From an uncultured beta proteobacterium (GTDB taxonomy: Bacteria > Pseudomonadota > Gammaproteobacteria > Burkholderiales > Burkholderiaceae_B), in assembly GCA_903894155.1 (NCBI GenBank), contig CAITPF010000388.1, positions 1-32,932 on the forward strand: a stretch of 32,932 bases of DNA, written 5' to 3'. Position 1 is the stretch's first letter, and each line of letters starts with the position of its first letter. Below the pieces are notes generated by a model. That model was not told where the DNA came from, did no database searches, and was given only the letters and a program-made list of their open reading frames with translations. Below are positions 14,485 to 26,903 of the stretch, piece after piece. A program made the position numbers and the translations under genes.

Positions 14485-15399
14485 TCACGCATTGGCGCGG
14501 GCTCTTGCGACCGCAGCCTGTGCCGCCGCCTCGCCGTCAGCGATGGCGTTTTCAAGCATGCCGCCGTAGCCTGCGCGAACGGCGCCCGCCGCGTAGAGAC
14601 CTGGGATGGCAGTTTGCAGCGACGCGTCGACGACGATCAGGCCGCTGGAGGCGTCCTTCACGGATTCCGGGGCAAAGCCGCTTGTCGGCTCAAGGCCGAT
14701 ATAGGCAAAGATGCCGGTGCATGCGATTTCCATGGTGGAGCGATCGTTGCAGTTGACGACATCGACGTGGTCCACGCCTTTGTCGCCCCGGATCGCGGTG
14801 ACTTCGTAGGGACTTAACTCGGTGATGTTCGGGCAGGCCCGAACCGCGTCGATGAGGTGCGCGCGCGCGGTCAGCTCCTTGCCGTGATGCAGCAGGTGGA
14901 CCTGGCGGCAGAACTGCGCAAGGACCAGCGCTTCCTGGAGGGCCGAGTCGCCTGCGCCCGCCACCACGACGTCGGCACCCTGGTACATCGGGCCGTCGCA
15001 GTCAGCGCAGCTCGCCACGCCCCGGTACTCGAATTCCGCTTCCCCCGGCACGCCGAGTTTCCGAAGTTTCGCGCCGGAGGCAATGATCACGGCCGCGGCA
15101 TTGTGGCTGCCCTGGTCGGTCGACACGATCAGGCGCCCGCCTGCGGCGTCGATGCCGGTCACGCATTCGGACAGCATCTCGACACCGGCCTCGCTGGCCT
15201 CGAGCATCAGGTTGGACGCGAGATCCGTTCCGGAGCCTTCGATGGCGCCGTCGAGTTCGTTGATGTTGATCACGAGCCCGCCAAACATTTGCTCCTCGAT
15301 GCAGGCGACGCTGGCGCCCAGTTGTCGGGCCTGTTTGGCTGCGGACAGGCCGGCGACGCCCTGGCCGATCACGATGACATCAAAGTGTTGTGCTGACAT
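14485..15399 (-). CDS. Thioredoxin-reductase-like FAD/NAD(P)H oxidoreductase
   Basis: A 304-residue class II pyridine-nucleotide disulfide reductase. It has the FAD-binding VIVIGQGVAGLSAA (8-21), the redox-active CADC (131-134; CATC in classical TrxB), the NAD(P)H-binding VVVAGAGDSALQEA (145-158) and the C-terminal FAD motif in LYAAGAV. It is slightly shorter than E. coli TrxB (~320). GGGA precedes the ATG, which lies 21 bases after the selB stop, so the two are probably co-transcribed. The pairing suggests a role in supplying reducing power to a selenium or selenoprotein pathway, but this is inference from position only. An electron partner (thioredoxin or peroxiredoxin) is not in the window. 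Confidence 0.9.
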   Translation of the reverse strand: MSAQHFDVIVIGQGVAGLSAAKQARQLGASVACIEEQMFGGLVININELDGAIEGSGTDLASNLMLEASEAGVEMLSECVTGIDAAGGRLIVSTDQGSHNAAAVIIASGAKLRKLGVPGEAEFEYRGVASCADCDGPMYQGADVVVAGAGDSALQEALVLAQFCRQVHLLHHGKELTARAHLIDAVRACPNITELSPYEVTAIRGDKGVDHVDVVNCNDRSTMEIACTGIFAYIGLEPTSGFAPESVKDASSGLIVVDASLQTAIPGLYAAGAVRAGYGGMLENAIADGEAAAQAAVARARANA

Positions 15400-15420: not shown

Positions 15421-17358
15421 TTATAGGCTGGGGGTGCCGGTTACCGGCCCCAGTATTGTCGCAAAATCCTTGCGAATCTTGCGTTTGTCCCCGATGCGCT
15501 GTGTGATGCCGAGCCGGTCGAGGCTCTCGAGGATTTCGATCGACAGCATGCGGTTGACGCCGACCTGGTCCCGGTACTGGGCCGCCGTGAACATCTGGTC
15601 CGCACTCGCCTGGGCAACCGACTGCGCGATGGCGGCCAGGCGCGCGAAGGTCTCGCGCGGGTAGAAACGATTGGAACTGACCCGGAACACCTCGCCGCTC
15701 TTGGCTTTGCGGTGGAGAAACTCCTCCACGATGGCCTTCTTGAGCCCGGCCGTGACGGCCAGTGTTTCGGCGGGTTCCGGTTTGAACTCCATCGCAACGA
15801 GCAAAGGCTTGAGCTTTTGCCACATCACGTCGTCGACGGAGTTTGCCGTTGCGTGGTGGCCGGCGCGCGTGGCGATCGATCCGTTGATCGACAGCTTCTT
15901 CGCTTCGGCCAGTACGCGCAGCAGGGCGAGAAAGGTCTTTTCGTCGAGCGCCGGCGCCGACTTGGCGCGCAGTTCACGCAGCCCCAGCCCTAAGCTGCGG
16001 GGCTGGTCCGTGTGGAAGCTTTGCAGGCAATGAAGAATCTGTTGGTGATGCTCATCGATGCCGGTCCGGAGGATGGCGATGTCGGGATCTTTCGATACGA
16101 CGATCGCGCCGACTGCAGCGAGGATTTCCTGAAGCCGGGCATCGGTGAGATTGAATGCGCAGCCGAATTTCGTGATCTCGACCCCGGCAGGCGAGCAGGC
16201 GAGCAAGTGCGCGAGCGCCGTCTGCGGCTCAGGTGTCGCCAGGGCTTCGAGGCGCTCGGCGCGCAGTGGATCCCGGCGCCGGGGGCGCGGCGCGAACGGG
16301 TCGATGACGGTACCCCCGCCGACTGTTCGGGTGGCGGATTGGTCCCGGATGATGAACCGGTCACCCTGGAGCGCCGCAATGGGGCGATCGAGGAGCAATT
16401 GAACGACTCTCGAACCGCCCGGCTCGATCGATTCGCCACGGCGAATCGATACCCGCGCGATCACCTCGGACGTGCCCAGGTGCAGGCGCACCGGGGTCCA
16501 GTGTCCGAGGGCGCGCTCTTCGGCCGCGAGCACGCTCACCCGGGCGTCAATGCGCTCGGTGGGTGCGTGCAGCGGGTTGGCGACGATCCAGTCGCCGCGC
16601 CCGACTTCTTCGAGCGAGGCGCCGGCGATGTTGATGGCGCAGCGTTCGCCGGCGCTGGCGCAATCGCTCGGCACGCCGTTTTTCTGGATTCCGCGCACGC
16701 GTACGCTCACGCCGCGCGGGGTCACGGTGACGCGGTCGCCGACGCGGATTTCGTGATTGAACACGGTGCCGGTGACGACGGTGCCGCTTCCGGTGATGGT
16801 GAAAGCCCGGTCAATCGCATAGCGCAGCTGCCGCCCTGCGGAGTCGCGGGCCTGAAGGTTGCGGGACGCGGTGGCAAGCACGTCGCGAAGCTTCGCGATG
16901 CCGTCGCCGGTATGGGCTGACGCGGCAATGACATCGATGGCAGCGAGGCTGGTCGGGGCGAGCAGGGCGCGGGTGGATTCAATGACTTCGGCGACGCGGT
17001 CAGCGCCAACGCGATCGGTCTTGGTGACGATGGCGATGCCTGCAGTCACGCCAAGCAGGTCGATGATGTTGAGGTGCTCGATGGTCTGGGGCATGACGCC
17101 GTCGTCTGCAGCGACGACGAGCATGACAAAATCGATGCCGCAAACGCCCGCGAGCATGTTGCGCACGAAGCGTTCGTGGCCGGGCACATCGACGAAGCCA
17201 ATTTGGGGGGCGTCGGGCGGGGTCCAGTAGGCAAAGCCGAGGTCAATGGAAATGCCGCGCGCCTTTTCCTCGGGAAGCCGGTCGGTGTCGATGCCTGACA
17301 GGGCCTTGACCAGGGTGCTCTTGCCGTGATCAATGTGGCCCGCGGTTGCGACAATCAT
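15421..17358 (-). CDS. selB: Selenocysteine-specific translation elongation factor SelB
   Basis: A 645-residue GTPase that carries Sec-tRNA(Sec) to the ribosome at UGA codons marked by a SECIS hairpin. The EF-Tu-like G domain has GHIDHGKST (7-15), DVPGH (57-61) and TKTD (112-115). Domains II and III follow, with GTVVTGTV and FIIRDQSATRTVGGG. The last ~250 residues form the winged-helix region that binds SECIS RNA, a part absent from EF-Tu, so the full-length product is clearly SelB (usual length 610-650). It heads the minus-strand run with the TrxR-like gene. selA, selD and tRNA(Sec) are not in the window. Its presence supports the UGA-containing selenoprotein gene at 22537-24261. Confidence 0.96.
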   Translation of the reverse strand: MIVATAGHIDHGKSTLVKALSGIDTDRLPEEKARGISIDLGFAYWTPPDAPQIGFVDVPGHERFVRNMLAGVCGIDFVMLVVAADDGVMPQTIEHLNIIDLLGVTAGIAIVTKTDRVGADRVAEVIESTRALLAPTSLAAIDVIAASAHTGDGIAKLRDVLATASRNLQARDSAGRQLRYAIDRAFTITGSGTVVTGTVFNHEIRVGDRVTVTPRGVSVRVRGIQKNGVPSDCASAGERCAINIAGASLEEVGRGDWIVANPLHAPTERIDARVSVLAAEERALGHWTPVRLHLGTSEVIARVSIRRGESIEPGGSRVVQLLLDRPIAALQGDRFIIRDQSATRTVGGGTVIDPFAPRPRRRDPLRAERLEALATPEPQTALAHLLACSPAGVEITKFGCAFNLTDARLQEILAAVGAIVVSKDPDIAILRTGIDEHHQQILHCLQSFHTDQPRSLGLGLRELRAKSAPALDEKTFLALLRVLAEAKKLSINGSIATRAGHHATANSVDDVMWQKLKPLLVAMEFKPEPAETLAVTAGLKKAIVEEFLHRKAKSGEVFRVSSNRFYPRETFARLAAIAQSVAQASADQMFTAAQYRDQVGVNRMLSIEILESLDRLGITQRIGDKRKIRKDFATILGPVTGTPSL

Positions 17359-21035: not shown

Positions 21036-21677
21036 TTGATTACCGAAAAAAAACCTGCAAATAGCCTAAATACGGTCAAAAATCCCAAGAACTCAGGCCT
21101 TTCTCTGGAAAAATGCATCGGGAACGCGGTCAAAGGACTGCGTTTGCGCCAGCAACTGACCATTAGCCAGGTCGCGGAATTGGCGGATCTCAGCGTTGGC
21201 ATGCTCTCGAAAATCGAGAACGGGCAAATCTCCCCTGGCCTGGATACGTTGAGCCGCCTGGCAAAAGCACTCGGTAGCACGATGGCCATGCTATTCCGCT
21301 CATACGATGTGCCAGCGGGGGGCGCGCACCTGGTCAAGCACGGCGAAGGCACGCCATTTTTGCGCCACGGCAAACGTCCGGGGCACTCCTTTGAGCAACT
21401 TTCCTACGACCAGGGGCCGACCAAGGCCTTTGATGCCTTTCTCGTCACGATTGACCAAGCGTCAGATGATCTCCCCGCCATTGAACATCCTGGCATCGAA
21501 CTGATTTATGTGCTTGAGGGCGTCATGGAGTACCGCTGCGGACAAGAGCTATACGTTCTGGAGCCTGGGGACACCCTGACCCTCAAGGGAGAGGTGATGC
21601 ACGGATTTGAGCGGTTGGTTCAGCTACCGATTCGGTTTCTGTGCACCATCATTTACCCGGGCGCCTCGGCTACATAG
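21036..21677 (+). CDS. XRE-family transcriptional regulator with C-terminal cupin domain
   Basis: A 213-residue regulator. A helix-turn-helix domain spans about residues 30-85 (LRLRQQLTISQVAELADLS, then MLSKIENGQISPGLDTLSRL). A cupin sensor domain follows at about 125-205, with EHPGIELIYVLEGVMEY and LEPGDTLTLKGEVMHGFE. This architecture (SutR/PuuR type) usually senses a small amino-acid or amine metabolite and represses a neighbouring catabolic or transport operon. The start is TTG at 21036 with AAGGG 8 nt upstream; no in-frame ATG precedes the HTH. It diverges from the amino-acid-binding protein gene and leads into the racemase and selenoprotein genes, so it is the likely local regulator of both sides. 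Confidence 0.9.
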   Translation: MITEKKPANSLNTVKNPKNSGLSLEKCIGNAVKGLRLRQQLTISQVAELADLSVGMLSKIENGQISPGLDTLSRLAKALGSTMAMLFRSYDVPAGGAHLVKHGEGTPFLRHGKRPGHSFEQLSYDQGPTKAFDAFLVTIDQASDDLPAIEHPGIELIYVLEGVMEYRCGQELYVLEPGDTLTLKGEVMHGFERLVQLPIRFLCTIIYPGASAT

Positions 21678-21705
21678 ATCAAACATTTGTTTGGCAACAC
21701 ATTGG

Positions 21706-22443
21706 ATGAACATGAACACGACTGCAATAAAATACCTCCCACGCATTGGTGTGTTGGGAGGCATGGGGCCATTGGCGTCTGCAACATTTGTTGTTCAACT
21801 CGTCGAAGCAACGCCTGCGGTCTTCGATAAAGACCATTTCCCCCACACTCTGGATTCTTCCCCTCAGATCCCGGATCGCCCGAGCGCGATCGCGGGACGC
21901 GGCCCGGACCCACTTGCGGAAATCATCCAGGCCTTGCGGCGTCTGGAGAGTGCGGGCTCCGCTTTGATCGTGATGCCCTGCAATACGGTTCACCACTGGT
22001 ACGAAGGTATTGTCGCAAGCACCCGACTGCCCGTCCTTCACATCGCAGACGCCGTGGCCGATTGCCTCAGGACAGCCAATCCAACGGCAAAAAGAGTGGG
22101 GATATTGGGTTCAACCGTCACTTCAAAGCTCTTGATCTACGAGAAGCGCCTGGGTACGGAATGGGATTGGGTGTTTGCAACGGACGAGGAACTCGCCGAG
22201 GATGTGATGCCTGGAATCGCCGCAGTGAAAGCGGGCAACCTGGAAGAAGGACGAAAGCATTTCTTGAATGCAACGACAAAGATGATTCAGCGCAAGATCG
22301 ACGTTTTGGTCTTTGCCTGTACAGAAATACCGATCGTCCTGAAGCAGGCCGACGTGGCCGTGCCCGTCATCGACTCCAGCGAAGCCCTGGCCCATCACAC
22401 TGTCGCGATCGCGCAGTCCATGCGTGAGCGGATCGGGAATTAG
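21706..22443 (+). CDS. Aspartate/glutamate racemase family protein
   Basis: A 245-residue PLP-independent racemase-fold enzyme. It begins IGVLGGMGPLAS (14-25), carries the first catalytic cysteine in MPCNTVHHWY (Cys92) and the second in FACTEIP (Cys205), so both acid/base cysteines are present. Length and motifs fit the aspartate/glutamate racemase (YgeA/RacX-like) group. Two ATGs are possible (21706 and 21712) and neither has a good ribosome site; the gene starts 28 bases after the regulator stop and may be translationally coupled. Position before the selenoprotein gene and opposite an amino-acid receptor suggests it interconverts enantiomers of the imported compound, but members of this fold also include maleate isomerases and decarboxylases. 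Confidence 0.9.
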   Translation: MNMNTTAIKYLPRIGVLGGMGPLASATFVVQLVEATPAVFDKDHFPHTLDSSPQIPDRPSAIAGRGPDPLAEIIQALRRLESAGSALIVMPCNTVHHWYEGIVASTRLPVLHIADAVADCLRTANPTAKRVGILGSTVTSKLLIYEKRLGTEWDWVFATDEELAEDVMPGIAAVKAGNLEEGRKHFLNATTKMIQRKIDVLVFACTEIPIVLKQADVAVPVIDSSEALAHHTVAIAQSMRERIGN

Positions 22444-22536
22444 CGCGAAAGGATATTTGTAGTCTCAGGCCCGCGCTGCTACGATCGGTCGAAGATTGAG
22501 TCCGCCCCCAGGGGTTTGCGTACTTAAGAGGTGGCT

Positions 22537-24261
22537 ATGGAGCAACTGCATATAGTCAGTCCCGCCGGTCTTCAGGCACTGAAGACCACAGCGACCGCGC
22601 CGCGGCTGGACGATCTGAACGGGAAAACGCTCGGCGAGGTTTGGAACGGGGTGTTCAAAGGGGACATGACCTTTCCGATCATTCGCCGGCTTCTGCAAGC
22701 CAGATATCCAGGCATCAGGGTCGTTCCCTATACCGACTTCCATCATCAGCCTGGCAGCGACGTCCCGGAACAACAGCGCGAGATCGAACGCGGTATCGTC
22801 GCCGCCGCAAGGGCAAAGGGCTGCGACGCGCTGATCATGGGCAACGGGGCCTGAGGCAATTGCGCACCGGCCGCGGCGCGGCCGGCGGCAGAAGCGGAAA
22901 AGGATGGGATCCCCAGCGTGGTCGTCACGACGACGGGCTTTTCCGCGCTCGCGCGGTTCACCGGCAAGGCGCGCGGGGTCGAGGCTTTGCGCATTGCCGA
23001 GTATCCGGGGCCGGTGGGCATCCACGATGCAGGCCAGATTGCACACAACGTTGAAACGACGCTTTTCGAGGCGATTGTCGATGGCCTGACGCGCGCCGAT
23101 GTGCCAGGCCTGTCCCAGGCAACGGAAAACGGCAGCGGTGCGACCGATATCGTTTTCACGGGCACGTACGATGAGGTCAATCGCTTTTTCGCATCGAAAG
23201 AATGGACCGATGGCTTGCCGATCACGCCGCCTACGCCCGAGCGGGTAGACGCCTTCATGAAATTCACGCGGCGGGCGCCTGACGAGACCATCGCCGTGCT
23301 GCCCTCGGCCAATCTGCGTGCAACACCCTGGAACGTGGCGGTCAATGCGGTCATGGCCGGCTGCCAACCCGAGCACATGCCGATTTTGGTCGCCGCCGTC
23401 GAGGCGCTGGGCGACGAGCGCGCCTGTCTGGGCAGCCTGGGCAGCACGTCGGGGATCTTTCCATTCATCCTGATCAACGGGCCGATCGTTGAACAACTGG
23501 GCATTGCGCACGGCGCGCAACTCATCTCCTGCGGGCCGAACCCGACGATCGGTCGCGCCATCGGCCTGATTGTGCGCAACATTGCCGGTTTTCGTCCCGG
23601 CGCAAGTTATATGGGCACCTTTGGCTACCCGCTGGCGTTCGCGTTGGGGGAGTCGACCGGCGCCACGCCCTGGCAGCCCTTCCACGTCGACCAGGGGTTT
23701 GATGCAGGTGCCAGTACGGTGACCGTTGGCGTCACGAACAACTGGGGGGCTGCGCCCGCCGCGTACGACACCCCGGATCAAAGCGGCGCCGAAACCGCGT
23801 TGCAACTGCTTGCGCGCGAGATCACTCATAAGACGCGCCTATTCCACTTTCCCGGCAGCGGCCCGGATTCCGAGACCGTGATGATCACTTTGATGATTTC
23901 ACCCTCGGTGGCCAAATCACTGGCCGATGCGGGATATTCGAAACGGGACGTGATCGAGCAGGTGTTCGAGAGAACGCGCATGCCATTGCGCGAGTACGAC
24001 TGGGTGCTCAAGTACACGGCCATTATGCGCACCACAGCGCGCGAGCGTGCGCTGGCGGGGGTGCTTCCAATAGAATTCATGGGTGAGCCCGACGATATCG
24101 TTCGTGTGCTGTCCAGTCCGGATATCCTGAGCCTTATTGTCTGCGGTGATCCGAATCGCAACCGCGTGATGGTGCTTGAGGGCGGTCATACCCAGCCGAC
24201 CACCAGGCAGATCGTATTTCCTCCGGATTGGGAAGCGCTGCTAAATCAATCCCGGCCCTGA
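22537..24261 (+). CDS. Predicted selenoprotein, UGSC family fused to a DGLPIxPPT domain; in-frame UGA read as Sec106
   Basis: A single frame of 574 codons runs from ATG 22537 (AAGAGG just upstream) to 24261, with one internal stop, TGA at 22852-22854. Before it, residues 1-105 match the UGSC-family N-terminus (LDDLNGKTLGEVWNG, then CDALIMGNGA). After it the frame continues GNCAPAA and then EKDGIPSVVVTT, the expected strand after the UGSC motif. The motif here is U-G-N-C, a UxxC selenothiol pair typical of redox or nucleophilic Sec. A second domain starts near residue 223 (WTDGLPITPPTPERV) and fills the C-terminus. A SECIS-like hairpin follows the UGA and selB is nearby. Annotated naively this becomes two hypothetical proteins (22537-22854 and one from GTG 22918), the second beginning inside a beta strand. 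The reaction is unknown. The alternative is a nonsense mutation or sequencing error. Confidence 0.85.
22855..22885 (+). promoter_or_regulatory. Bacterial SECIS-like hairpin
   Basis: Directly after the in-frame UGA, CCGGCCGC (22867-22874) and GCGGCCGG (22878-22885) form a perfect 8-bp stem with loop GGC (22875-22877). The loop begins 21 nt after the UGA, close to the spacing in E. coli fdhF, and starts with G, as bacterial SECIS loops do. The hairpin lies within coding sequence, as expected for bacterial SECIS. Confidence 0.7.
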
Positions 24262-24312: not shown

Positions 24313-25296
24313 ATGCTGAGACTCCGAAAGATTTGTTTGTTCATTGCCCACCTGGGGATGCTGGCGTCTGTTTCGGCCGCATTGCCGGCGGCTGCGCAGT
24401 ATCCGGACAAGCCAATGCATGTGATCATCCCGATGGCGCCGGGCGGAGCCATTGATATTCTCGCGCGCCCACTGGCCCAGCAGATGTCGAAAATTCTCGG
24501 CGCACCCGTCGTCATCGATAACCACGGTGGCGCCGGAGGCAATATCGGTGGCGATATGGTCGCGCGGGCGGCGCCAGACGGCTACACCTTGCTGCTGACC
24601 ACCAGCGGGTTGATTGTGGCGAACAAGAGCCTGTATAAGCAGATGCCGTTTGATCCGCAAAGCGACCTGGTGCCCGTGAGTATCGTCGCATCCTTGCCCA
24701 ATGTGCTCGTGGTCAACACCCGGAGCCCTTATCAAAGCGTGCAGCATATCGTGACCGCGGCGAAGAAGGAGCCAGGAAAACTGAACTTCGCCTCTGGCGG
24801 CCCGGGCTCGTCGAATCACCTGGCGGGCGAGCTTTTCAAATCGCTGTCGGGCATCGATCTCGTCCATGTGCCTTACCGCGGCGGCGGGCCTGCAGTGGTG
24901 GCCGTCATGGCCGGGGATGTCACCATGTTGTTCGCGACCTTGCCCTCGGTGACCGCGCAGATCGAGAACGGCAGGCTGCGCGCGCTGGCGGTCACCACCG
25001 GCACGCGCGCGCCACAACTGCCGCAGGTGCCCACCATGATGCAGGCTGGCGTCGAGGGGTTTGAGACTTCGGTCTGGATCGGTGCGCTGGCACCCAGGGG
25101 TACGCCTGCCGGTATCGTCGATAAATTGCAGAAGGCGATCGTGCAGGCGCTGGCCACGCCAGAGTTCAGCAGGCTCCTGCAACACGAGGGTTATCAGGCG
25201 GTCGGCAGCACGCCGGCGCAAATGGCCGCCAAGATCCAGAGCGAGTCCGCCAAATGGGCGCGGGTCATCAAGGAGGCCGGTATCCAGCCGGATTAG
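24313..25296 (+). CDS. Bug-family (TctC-like) solute-binding protein
   Basis: A 327-residue periplasmic receptor. It has a signal peptide (about residues 1-28, cleavage near AAA-QY), then YPDKPMHVIIPMAPGGAIDI, DNHGGAGGNI and AAPDGYTLLLTTS, all Bug-family blocks. A strong AGAGGAGG (24300-24307) stands 5 nt before the ATG. It lies between the selenoprotein and the lyase-like gene on the same strand, so it is probably the uptake receptor for the substrate of this cluster. No tctA/tctB genes are near it. The ligand is unknown; cluster context points to an amino-acid-derived or dicarboxylic compound. Confidence 0.93.
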   Translation: MLRLRKICLFIAHLGMLASVSAALPAAAQYPDKPMHVIIPMAPGGAIDILARPLAQQMSKILGAPVVIDNHGGAGGNIGGDMVARAAPDGYTLLLTTSGLIVANKSLYKQMPFDPQSDLVPVSIVASLPNVLVVNTRSPYQSVQHIVTAAKKEPGKLNFASGGPGSSNHLAGELFKSLSGIDLVHVPYRGGGPAVVAVMAGDVTMLFATLPSVTAQIENGRLRALAVTTGTRAPQLPQVPTMMQAGVEGFETSVWIGALAPRGTPAGIVDKLQKAIVQALATPEFSRLLQHEGYQAVGSTPAQMAAKIQSESAKWARVIKEAGIQPD

Positions 25297-25418
25297 GCGG
25301 CGCGCACGGTGCGCAGCGGCATGAGCAACGGGATACTCGTTCTTCCCGATATCATGAGTCTGCGGCTACGATAACCCGGGCAACCGGTCACGCCGGGTCA
25401 ACAACAAAGGAGTGGGAG

Positions 25419-26903
25419 ATGAGCTTTTTCTGGGAGGGGAGACTGGGTGAAAAGCCAAGCGACTTACTCAAGTATTACTACGCGGAAGAATTGCGCGAGC
25501 CGCAGTTTCTCGAGGCGCTGCATCAATGGGACAAGGCCCAGGTCATCGTCCTGGGCGAGCAAGCCATCGCGCCGCCCGAGGCCGTGCGCGCCCTGGTGGA
25601 CGCCATCGCGCTGATGGAAGAGGAAGGCGTCGTCAAGGCGCGCACCGCGCTGTGGAATGTGATCCATGGCGGCGAAGAGTACATGCGCAAGCATTGCGAT
25701 GAAGAAAAATCGGGATGGCTGCACATGGGCCGCTCAAGCCCAAGTTTGCGCATGGTGGCCTCGCGCATTGCGTTTCGCAATTTGCAGGTGCAGATCATGG
25801 CATCGACGCTGGATCTGCGAAAAAAGCTCATCGACATCGCCGAGCAGCATGTCGAAACGCTGATGCCCGGATACAGCTATATCCAGCACATTGAGCCGAC
25901 CACGCTGGGGTTCTACCTGATGTCGTTTGTCGAGCCGCTGGAGCGCGATTATCAGCGCTTCATCGCAGCCTATGGCAATACGAATATCAGTTCTGTCGGA
26001 ACCGGTGCGGCCTACGGGATCGAATTCCCGCTGGATCTTGAGCGCTTCGACGAGTTGCTCGGCTTCGATGCGGCGCCCTGGAATGCGCGCGATTCGATTC
26101 GCAATTACGATTTCATGATCGAAACGTATATGGCGCTGGCCCTGATGCACAACACGATCGGGCGCATCGGCATGGATTTCCTGATCTGGTGCAGCGCCGA
26201 GTTCGATTTCATCGAGTTACCAAACCACGTGAGCACGACATCGAGCATCTCGCCGCAGATGCGCATCCCGTATGTCCTGGAATTCGTGCACGGCACGAGC
26301 GGCCTGCTGGCCGGGCGTTTGATGGGCGCGCTGGCGATGACGAAAACCGCGTCGGATCAGCTCGAAATGGCGACGATGCTACCCGCCGAGTTCTGGAAGA
26401 GCGCGGAAGAATCCAGGCGTGCGATGCAGTCGCTGATCGAAGCGCTGGACATGAAGGTCAATAAGGAGCGCATGGCGCAATGCGCCAACGAGTATTGGTC
26501 TCAGGCGAGTACGGTGGTGGGTTATCTGGTCAAGGAGCACGGCATGTCGTACCGTACCGGCCATCAGATTCTGGCGCTGATGATGCAGACGGTTAAAGAC
26601 AAAAGGATTCCGCCGTCGCAGGTGACGCCGGATGTGCTGGAGGATGCGGTCGAGAAATATACCGGTCGTCGCATTGGCGTTACGCAGGAATTGCTCAATC
26701 AGCTGTTCGACGCGATGTATTGCGTGCGTGAGCGGAAGTATCGCGGGGGAGGCGCGCCGGAGCGTGTTGTGGAGCATATTGCCGCTGCGCGGGAGCGGTT
26801 GGCGCAGGATCGAAAATTCGTTGTGGAGAAGGCAATGGCGATCGATGCGGCCGGTCAGCGGATGGATCAGGCCTTTGTGGATTTGCAGAAGAAGTACGTG
26901 TAA
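25419..26903 (+). CDS. Argininosuccinate lyase/fumarase superfamily protein with altered catalytic residues
   Basis: A 494-residue, mostly helical protein with the three conserved regions of the ASL/fumarase superfamily, each altered. Region 1 reads HMGRSSPSL (102-110) where ASL has HTGRSRNDQ. Region 2 reads MPGYSYIQ (149-156) where ASL has MPGYTHLQ, so the catalytic His is Tyr. Region 3 reads SSISPQMRIP (275-284) where ASL has GSSxMPQKKNP, so the loop Ser stays but the Lys and Asn that hold the fumarate carboxylate are lost. Length and fold signals are normal, so it is not decayed. AAGGAG precedes the ATG by 6 nt; the longer open frame upstream overlaps the Bug gene and is rejected. The last gene of the selenoprotein cluster. 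It probably performs a different elimination or none at all. Confidence 0.85.
   Translation: MSFFWEGRLGEKPSDLLKYYYAEELREPQFLEALHQWDKAQVIVLGEQAIAPPEAVRALVDAIALMEEEGVVKARTALWNVIHGGEEYMRKHCDEEKSGWLHMGRSSPSLRMVASRIAFRNLQVQIMASTLDLRKKLIDIAEQHVETLMPGYSYIQHIEPTTLGFYLMSFVEPLERDYQRFIAAYGNTNISSVGTGAAYGIEFPLDLERFDELLGFDAAPWNARDSIRNYDFMIETYMALALMHNTIGRIGMDFLIWCSAEFDFIELPNHVSTTSSISPQMRIPYVLEFVHGTSGLLAGRLMGALAMTKTASDQLEMATMLPAEFWKSAEESRRAMQSLIEALDMKVNKERMAQCANEYWSQASTVVGYLVKEHGMSYRTGHQILALMMQTVKDKRIPPSQVTPDVLEDAVEKYTGRRIGVTQELLNQLFDAMYCVRERKYRGGGAPERVVEHIAAARERLAQDRKFVVEKAMAIDAAGQRMDQAFVDLQKKYV

Follow-up and report, generated by a model that had tools for sequence, protein, structure and literature searches.

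Introduction

The UGSC proteins (PF24696, NF041046) are an already known family of selenoproteins, of which the gene described here is a new member. According to the available part of a study from 2008, selenoproteins of the UGSC type ranked among the most abundant ones in the marine survey of that year, a thioredoxin-like fold was suggested for them and a fusion with an uncharacterised domain was reported as UGSC/Unknown_1 (PMC2398784). In the accessible text of a review from 2026, the family is listed together with others of largely uncharacterised function (PMC13188914). Regarding the decoding, the available text of PMC5330540 describes UGSC proteins that are read from UAG in Geodermatophilaceae as well as two different complete Sec operons in Photobacterium profundum 3TCK, and in that of PMC4342817 one bacterial duplication is counted within the SelB family and two with CysN. 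A second group of relevance here are the Sec proteins GrdB and PrdB of the glycine/betaine/sarcosine/D-proline reductases (PF07355); for one strain eight grdB genes are given in the accessible part of PMC10838667.

The stretch of DNA analysed, referred to as the window, comprises 32,932 nucleotides and encodes a protein that resembles the described UGSC family in the Sec/Cys motif, the Pfam match and the fusion to an uncharacterised domain, as far as the available part of PMC2398784 describes these, and differs by a U-G-N-C motif and by a score below the NF041046 equivalog cut-off. With GrdB/PrdB it shares the profile of the Sec region, with Sec aligned on Sec and Cys on Cys, and, like GrdB, it occurs as several paralogues per genome (six UGSC genes here), whereas it has no Pfam GRDB match and a C-terminal domain unlike GrdE/PrdA. 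The window moreover encodes a SelB, referred to as SelB-U, which corresponds to the canonical SelB of the same genome (G000:C141, TIGR00475) in its full length, its GTPase and winged-helix domains and a score above the cut-off. However, it shares only 38% identity with this selA-selB-selC-linked protein, falls into a separate tree group and is linked to UGSC instead of selA. P. profundum 3TCK offers a parallel with its two decoding sets (compare genome G075 below), but here, unlike there as far as the accessible text of PMC5330540 goes, the second set is linked to a single family of selenoproteins. The linkage to SelB-U and to a thioredoxin-reductase (TrxR)-like gene does not appear in the available part of PMC2398784.

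A UGSC gene with an in-frame UGA

The gene and its parts were assigned as follows:
22527..22534, + strand: AGAGGTGG, immediately 5' of the ATG, read from the sequence, a candidate ribosome-binding site by its motif
22537..24261, + strand: coding sequence of a UGSC/Unknown_1-type fusion selenoprotein of 574 aa with Sec as residue 106, assigned by UGSC match, homologues and frame conservation
22552..23091, + strand: UGSC (Sec) domain, predicted alpha/beta, a GrdB/PrdB Sec-domain relative by profile comparison
22852..22854, + strand: in-frame UGA, putatively selenocysteine, in a U-G-N-C motif with Cys109 as second motif residue; assigned by the codon counts in homologues
22867..22885, + strand: putative bacterial SECIS hairpin with an 8-bp stem CCGGCCGC/GCGGCCGG and the loop GGC, 20 nt past the UGA, -16.1 kcal/mol
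23128..24258, + strand: C-terminal domain with the near-invariant Cys276, encoded by a neighbouring gene of its own in other loci

Translation of 22537-24261 results in 575 codons with a terminal TGA and a single internal TGA, that at residue 106, in agreement with the sequence-only reading, which had regarded it as the only interruption of the frame. As foreseen there, mechanical ORF calling splits the gene into two ORFs, GTG 22531-22854 (107 aa) and GTG 22918-24261 (447 aa), and the downstream GTG, which had been suspected to lie in the middle of a strand, is residue 128 within the predicted strand 127-132. The profile search proposed by the same reading upheld the assignment to the UGSC family: the joined product scores 90.2 bits against Pfam UGSC (PF24696; residues 6-185; cut-off 25), far above its separate halves with 27.6 and 42.6 bits. 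The UGA indeed occupies the Sec position of the family motif, as had been claimed, but the context in the window protein is GNGA-U-GNC, hence U-G-N-C and not literally U-G-S-C. The equivalog cut-off of NCBIfam NF041046 (125) is not reached with 55.4 bits, suggesting that the window protein represents a divergent branch of the UGSC Pfam family.

The claim that the frame is preserved on both sides of the TGA was borne out by comparison with L050, L051, L052 and the C209 paralogue, all of them close homologues. For the segments on either side of the TGA, pN amounts to 0.19-0.33 and pS to 0.57-0.80, and in all four the TGA is aligned with a TGA. L053, the most similar homologue by identity, was excluded from this comparison because it contains additional stops. 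The genome of the window is a draft of 5.1 Mb in 502 contigs (99.45% complete, 5.57% contamination) and contains six UGSC genes above the Pfam cut-off. Each of the six carries exactly one TGA, placed at the motif, showing that the TGA is neither a chance event nor a sequencing slip.

The sequence-only reading had furthermore proposed to look for homologues with Sec or Cys at residue 106. Named genomes were scanned with patterns of the C-terminal domain and not of the Sec motif, which resulted in at least 589 stretches, 579 of them confirmed, and the best 80 of these 579 were retained. All 80 contain the U/C-G-x-C motif, and the codon at residue 106 is TGA in 63, TGC in 12 and TGT in 5, with none other; the 63 take in L053 with its additional stops and L077 with a second TGA. 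The 17 Cys-type fused loci among the best 80 of 579 (L087-L129) derive, judged by title, largely from rumen and gut bins, with titles such as Bacteroidia, Muribaculaceae, Rikenellaceae and Lentisphaerae. Among the loci of the scan, metagenome bins titled Bordetella parapertussis carry an odd-looking label.

The putative SECIS hairpin

The hairpin following the UGA has the properties described for bacterial SECIS elements in the legend to Figure 2, within the accessible part of PMC13188914, i.e., a stem of 8 bp, a loop of 3 nt starting with G and a spacing of 20 nt. Applied strictly, this rule is satisfied by 56 of 69 TGA genes (the 63 homologues among the best 80 of 579 plus the six genes of the own genome) and by none of the 17 Cys genes, whereas shuffles of synonymous codons predict 20.0 compliant TGA genes and 0.9 compliant Cys genes; the remaining 13 TGA genes fail it. 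When the window gene is considered singly, the rule is also satisfied by 161 of its 300 synonymous shuffles, and equal stability is reached by 19 of the 300, as hairpins arise easily in this gene due to its GC-rich codons. By itself the predicted hairpin of the window is therefore modest evidence, and the strength of the SECIS argument resides in the gene set.

The genome encodes a further Sec client, the formate dehydrogenase alpha subunit (G000:C311:4838-7882), with an in-frame TGA and a SECIS-like loop AGUCU. This element is alike in layout to the hairpins of the UGSC genes C174 and C217b, which show the loop AGUGU.

Relationship of the Sec domain to GrdB and PrdB

By eye, the motif region of the UGSC domain is GrdB-like. 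For a profile comparison, six proteins above the Pfam GRDB (PF07355) cut-off were collected from two genomes; we take these to be three GrdB and three PrdB. An hhalign comparison of an 18-sequence UGSC alignment with these six resulted in a probability of 96.6%, with Sec placed on Sec and Cys on Cys. Scored singly against the UGSC profile, five of the six reach 44.7-67.9, while the sixth stays under the null with 27.9. As null set served 683 proteins encoded beside UGSC genes, 16 of which score above 30 and are apparently pieces of UGSC proteins: nine match the UGSC domain of the window by BLAST, four were identified by reading, one corresponds to the initial half of the own-genome C217b gene, and two are C-terminal-domain proteins, the starts of which align to the latter half of the UGSC profile. 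Among the remaining null proteins the highest score is 29.8. Masking of the four motif columns still leaves an hhalign probability of 92.2% and scores of 32.3-48.0 for five of the six GrdB/PrdB proteins, the sixth again being under the null (20.3; best non-UGSC neighbour protein 29.7). The persistence of the match shows that the kinship does not derive from the motif alone. Pfam GRDB itself did not match the window protein up to an E-value of 10, as passed by the HMMER filters. These comparisons support a distant relationship, as judged from profiles, between the Sec domains of UGSC and of GrdB/PrdB. A similarity of the UGSC profile to FtsZ (E 0.005) was taken as a chance Rossmann-type likeness.

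The AlphaFold2 model calculated from a 49-sequence alignment (pLDDT 89.9, pTM 0.90) predicts a mostly alternating alpha/beta domain with Sec106 placed after strand 98-104 and before helix 109-122. A Foldseek search of the PDB with the Sec-domain model returned 1205 matches, none at E <= 0.001, and the top weak matches were MetH, azoreductase and hydantoin racemase. Sequence-based searches did not return a solved relative of the UGSC domain either.

The C-terminal domain

The part encoded by 23140-24258 has no Pfam family match up to an E-value of 10. As a standalone gene the domain recurs next to UGSC genes (27 of the 683 neighbouring proteins match it), and the own genome contains one UGSC-only ORF followed by a separate ORF for the C-terminal domain. 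Cys276 (NAVMAGC) is invariant in the 49-sequence alignment, and its conservation amounts to 90% or more in a set of 42 sequences. The predicted model of the domain has a pLDDT of 91.0 and finds no known fold in the PDB at E <= 0.001; the best match, a Leishmania fumarate hydratase (E 2.4e-3, TM 0.22), was regarded as unconvincing. An identity with GrdE/PrdA-like subunits was ruled out, as the probability against four GrdE/PrdA proteins is 0.2-0.5%. The domain probably corresponds to the Unknown_1 described in PMC2398784.

Neighbouring genes

The genes next to the selenoprotein gene and those around SelB-U are the following:
14485..15399, - strand: thioredoxin-reductase-like flavoprotein with a CADC motif, adjoining SelB-U (TIGR01292 222.9 bits, below the cut-off of 343.45)
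15421..17358, - strand: SelB-U, the second SelB of the genome, 645 aa (TIGR00475 405.6 bits, cut-off 242.25)
21607..22443, + strand: upstream Asp/Glu-racemase family protein, above the cut-off of the cysteate racemase model NF052483
24313..25296, + strand: TctC (Bug-type) solute-binding protein, directly downstream (PF03401 272.3 bits)
25254..26903, + strand: downstream argininosuccinate-lyase-like protein, under the equivalog cut-off

The racemase and the lyase were considered as conserved operon members and dismissed, as neighbour clustering of 84 UGSC loci revealed no relatives of either. In the same clustering the TctC cluster occurs in 34 of 84 loci as a raw count, but many TctC-type genes are present in Burkholderiales. 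The TctC protein of the window might have a role together with the selenoprotein. A TrxR-like gene lies near UGSC genes in 12 of the 84 loci, the window counted. Of 25 SelB loci examined, 12 have such a gene next to SelB, and none was seen in the stretch read for the other 13. The TrxR-like protein of the window is a candidate electron donor.

Of the 14 TGA-UGSC genomes that belong to one genus (see below), eight share the arrangement fused UGSC, UGSC, C-terminal domain, SelB-U and an opposite-strand TctC gene. Within the own genome, three UGSC genes are clustered in approximately 7 kb on G000:C217 (L018, 3966-11042) with TctC genes interspersed; the C-terminal domain is encoded three times there, once fused and twice as a separate gene. 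In bins of other Betaproteobacteria (L072, L075, L076, L078) a pair of SelB-U and TrxR-like genes is found within ~2-5 kb of a fused UGSC gene.

Sec machinery and the second SelB

The genome contains selA, selB, selC and selD, with the anticodon TCA in the tRNA-Sec, so that the machinery which the sequence-only reading had proposed to check for is complete. The same reading had pointed to a selB in the window; the gene is there, but it is the second of two full-length selB genes above the cut-off and belongs to a distinct lineage. The other one (C141:12764-14617) is located between selA and the tRNA-Sec gene. SelB-U carries the domains SelB-wing_2 and wing_3. A second tRNA-Sec in the own genome was searched for and rejected: Rfam RF01852 has nine matches, two above the cut-off, and the best three are one tRNA-Sec and two tRNA-Ser according to ARAGORN. 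Another genome, G075, encodes two different tRNA-Sec genes, L184 (3377-3472) and L199 (2726-2821), each beside one SelB; the two are identical in 69 of 96 columns, and the copy on the SelB-U side matches the tRNA-Sec of G203 in 84 of 96.

A survey of the bacterial family covered 268 genomes and detected a UGSC match in 46 of them (above the cut-off in 45); the matches contain an internal TGA in 18 genomes and are free of internal stops in 28. For all 18 of the former at least one gene was read, with the TGA at the motif. In the latter, 23 of 28 genomes were read, each with a Cys codon (22 TGC, 1 TGT); the codon reading left out G078, G190, G192 and G195, and in G197 no motif was present at the one UGSC locus looked at. 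With the window SelB as query, 19 genomes score 521-1406 bits, followed by a drop to at most 453 bits; SelB-U denotes this upper group, which is divided from the canonical type by score. These 19 comprise all 18 TGA-type UGSC genomes and, in addition, G263, a draft of 89% completeness with no UGSC match, meaning that SelB-U is present in 18 of 18 TGA-UGSC genomes versus 1 of 250 others. Altogether, 122 genomes have SelB matches at E 1e-90, 103 of them with the canonical type only, and in these 103 no TGA-type UGSC gene was found. Of the 23 genomes with a Cys-type reading of UGSC, 13 possess canonical SelB. SelB-U and UGSC share a contig in 15 of 18 genomes (exceptions G244, G248 and G213), and in the one-contig genome G105 the start of SelB-U lies ~0.2 kb from a fused UGSC gene. 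The 18 TGA-UGSC genomes are dominated by one genus (14), and four further genera agree; in the same genus, five canonical-only genomes (G238, G242, G255, G260, G262) have no UGSC match.

In a tree of 45 chosen SelB proteins, from which G158 and G184, the two just under the score gap, were omitted, 21 canonical proteins are placed on one side (support 100/99) and 23 SelB-U proteins on the opposite side (support 78/92, 76% of bootstrap trees), with 11 genomes contributing both types. The SelB of L093, encoded near a UGSC gene, forms a long branch clearly in neither group. Group-specific residues are found in the GTPase and in the C-terminal parts, for example Leu605 in 22 of 22 SelB-U versus Arg in 21 of 21 canonical proteins. 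No selenoprotein family tied to a SelB of its own was found in searches of open-licence papers.

Discussion

The evidence indicates that 22537-24261 is almost certainly one selenoprotein gene, the UGA of which would be decoded as selenocysteine with the aid of the hairpin, SelA, SelD, tRNA-Sec and SelB, as far as sequence comparison can tell. It is very improbable that the TGA is a real stop or a pseudogene mutation leaving two proteins or a dead gene. Such a stop would account for the two ORFs obtained by ORF calling, and UGSC and the C-terminal domain do occur as separate genes in other loci; however, the TGA sits within the UGSC domain rather than at the domain border, its site recurs in all six own-genome genes and in 63 of the best 80 homologues with Cys in the other 17, and purifying selection acts before as well as after it. 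With the gene read through as a selenoprotein, the nature of its Sec domain has to be judged. The U-x-x-C motif and the TrxR-like neighbour genes would suit thiol/selenol oxidoreductases of the thioredoxin fold, in which case the likeness to GrdB/PrdB would be convergent. This is improbable, since in the model strand 98-104 of a mostly alternating alpha/beta domain precedes the Sec, the 50 PDB matches listed among the 1205 (none at E <= 0.001) contain no thioredoxin and the GrdB/PrdB match stands with the motif masked; a thioredoxin-like fold is supported neither by the predicted model nor by the fold search.

Less clear-cut is which SelB serves the UGSC genes. SelB-U of the window, rather than the selABC-linked SelB, is a likely decoder of the UGSC UGA in our view, with the chances about evenly balanced; co-occurrence, linkage and phylogeny point to it, and the specificity of SelB would follow from these. 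It is the simplest reading of the co-occurrence, yet it rests on linkage and the pattern could reflect co-transfer. SelB-U might just as well travel with UGSC on an island and not be dedicated to it, with either SelB, or the canonical one alone, reading all SECIS elements, to which we assign a probability slightly short of even. The genome also has the canonical SelB and a formate dehydrogenase SECIS of like type, so that either SelB might serve: the loop AGUCU of the latter and the loop AGUGU of C174/C217b have a common layout. Moreover, seven of 19 SelB-U genomes show SelB-U alone at E 1e-90, and physical linkage by itself gives co-occurrence, with 14 of 18 genomes from one genus. Against this non-dedicated role, TGA-type UGSC genes occur in none of the 103 canonical-only genomes, 13 of 23 Cys-type genomes possess canonical SelB, SelB-U is also present in the three of 18 TGA-UGSC genomes with separate contigs, and the group-specific residues are partly C-terminal (Leu605 versus Arg).

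A mechanism can be outlined. The ribosome would read UGA 22852 as Sec, aided by the hairpin 22867-22885, SelA, SelD, tRNA-Sec and a SelB, with SelB-U as the favoured candidate over the selABC-linked one. The product may act in the manner of the glycine/proline reductase Sec subunit: Sec106, located past a strand of the alpha/beta domain, would attack or reduce a small, probably carboxylate-bearing substrate, which the C-terminal domain might help to hold, and Cys109 would resolve the selenium intermediate as Se-S. The selenol could then be restored by the TrxR-like flavoprotein (14485-15399), with or without thioredoxin. As a guess, the substrate might be a small carboxylate imported through Bug receptors. 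A GrdB/PrdB-like mechanism of this kind is put forward tentatively, more doubted than believed, with the domain kinship coming from profile comparison and the reaction, substrate and reductant extrapolated from there. The explanation as a whole, i.e., a SelB-U-decoded selenoprotein with GrdB/PrdB-like Sec chemistry and a TrxR-like donor, appears rather probable.

A broader reading is conceivable, although we would not quite lean towards it: these bacteria might run two parallel Sec-decoding systems, in which one SelB does the housekeeping for formate dehydrogenase and SelB-U is dedicated to the UGSC island, with a tRNA-Sec of its own in at least one genome that also has a canonical set. As part of this somewhat doubtful scenario, the island would be horizontally moving and encode GrdB/PrdB-like reductases for imported small carboxylates, composed of UGSC, the C-terminal domain and the TrxR-like donor.

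The findings go further than the known family in the GrdB/PrdB kinship, in the second, divergent SelB tied to TGA-type UGSC genes and in the adjacent TrxR-like gene. For annotation, the locus illustrates that UGSC genes are split by Sec-blind procedures, six such genes being present in this genome. The GrdB/PrdB kinship and the recurrent TrxR-like neighbour open up a testable chemistry for UGSC proteins. Finally, a SelB type almost exclusive to one selenoprotein family, as seen across the 268 genomes, would mean two natural Sec insertion systems per cell, which would be useful for understanding SECIS recognition.
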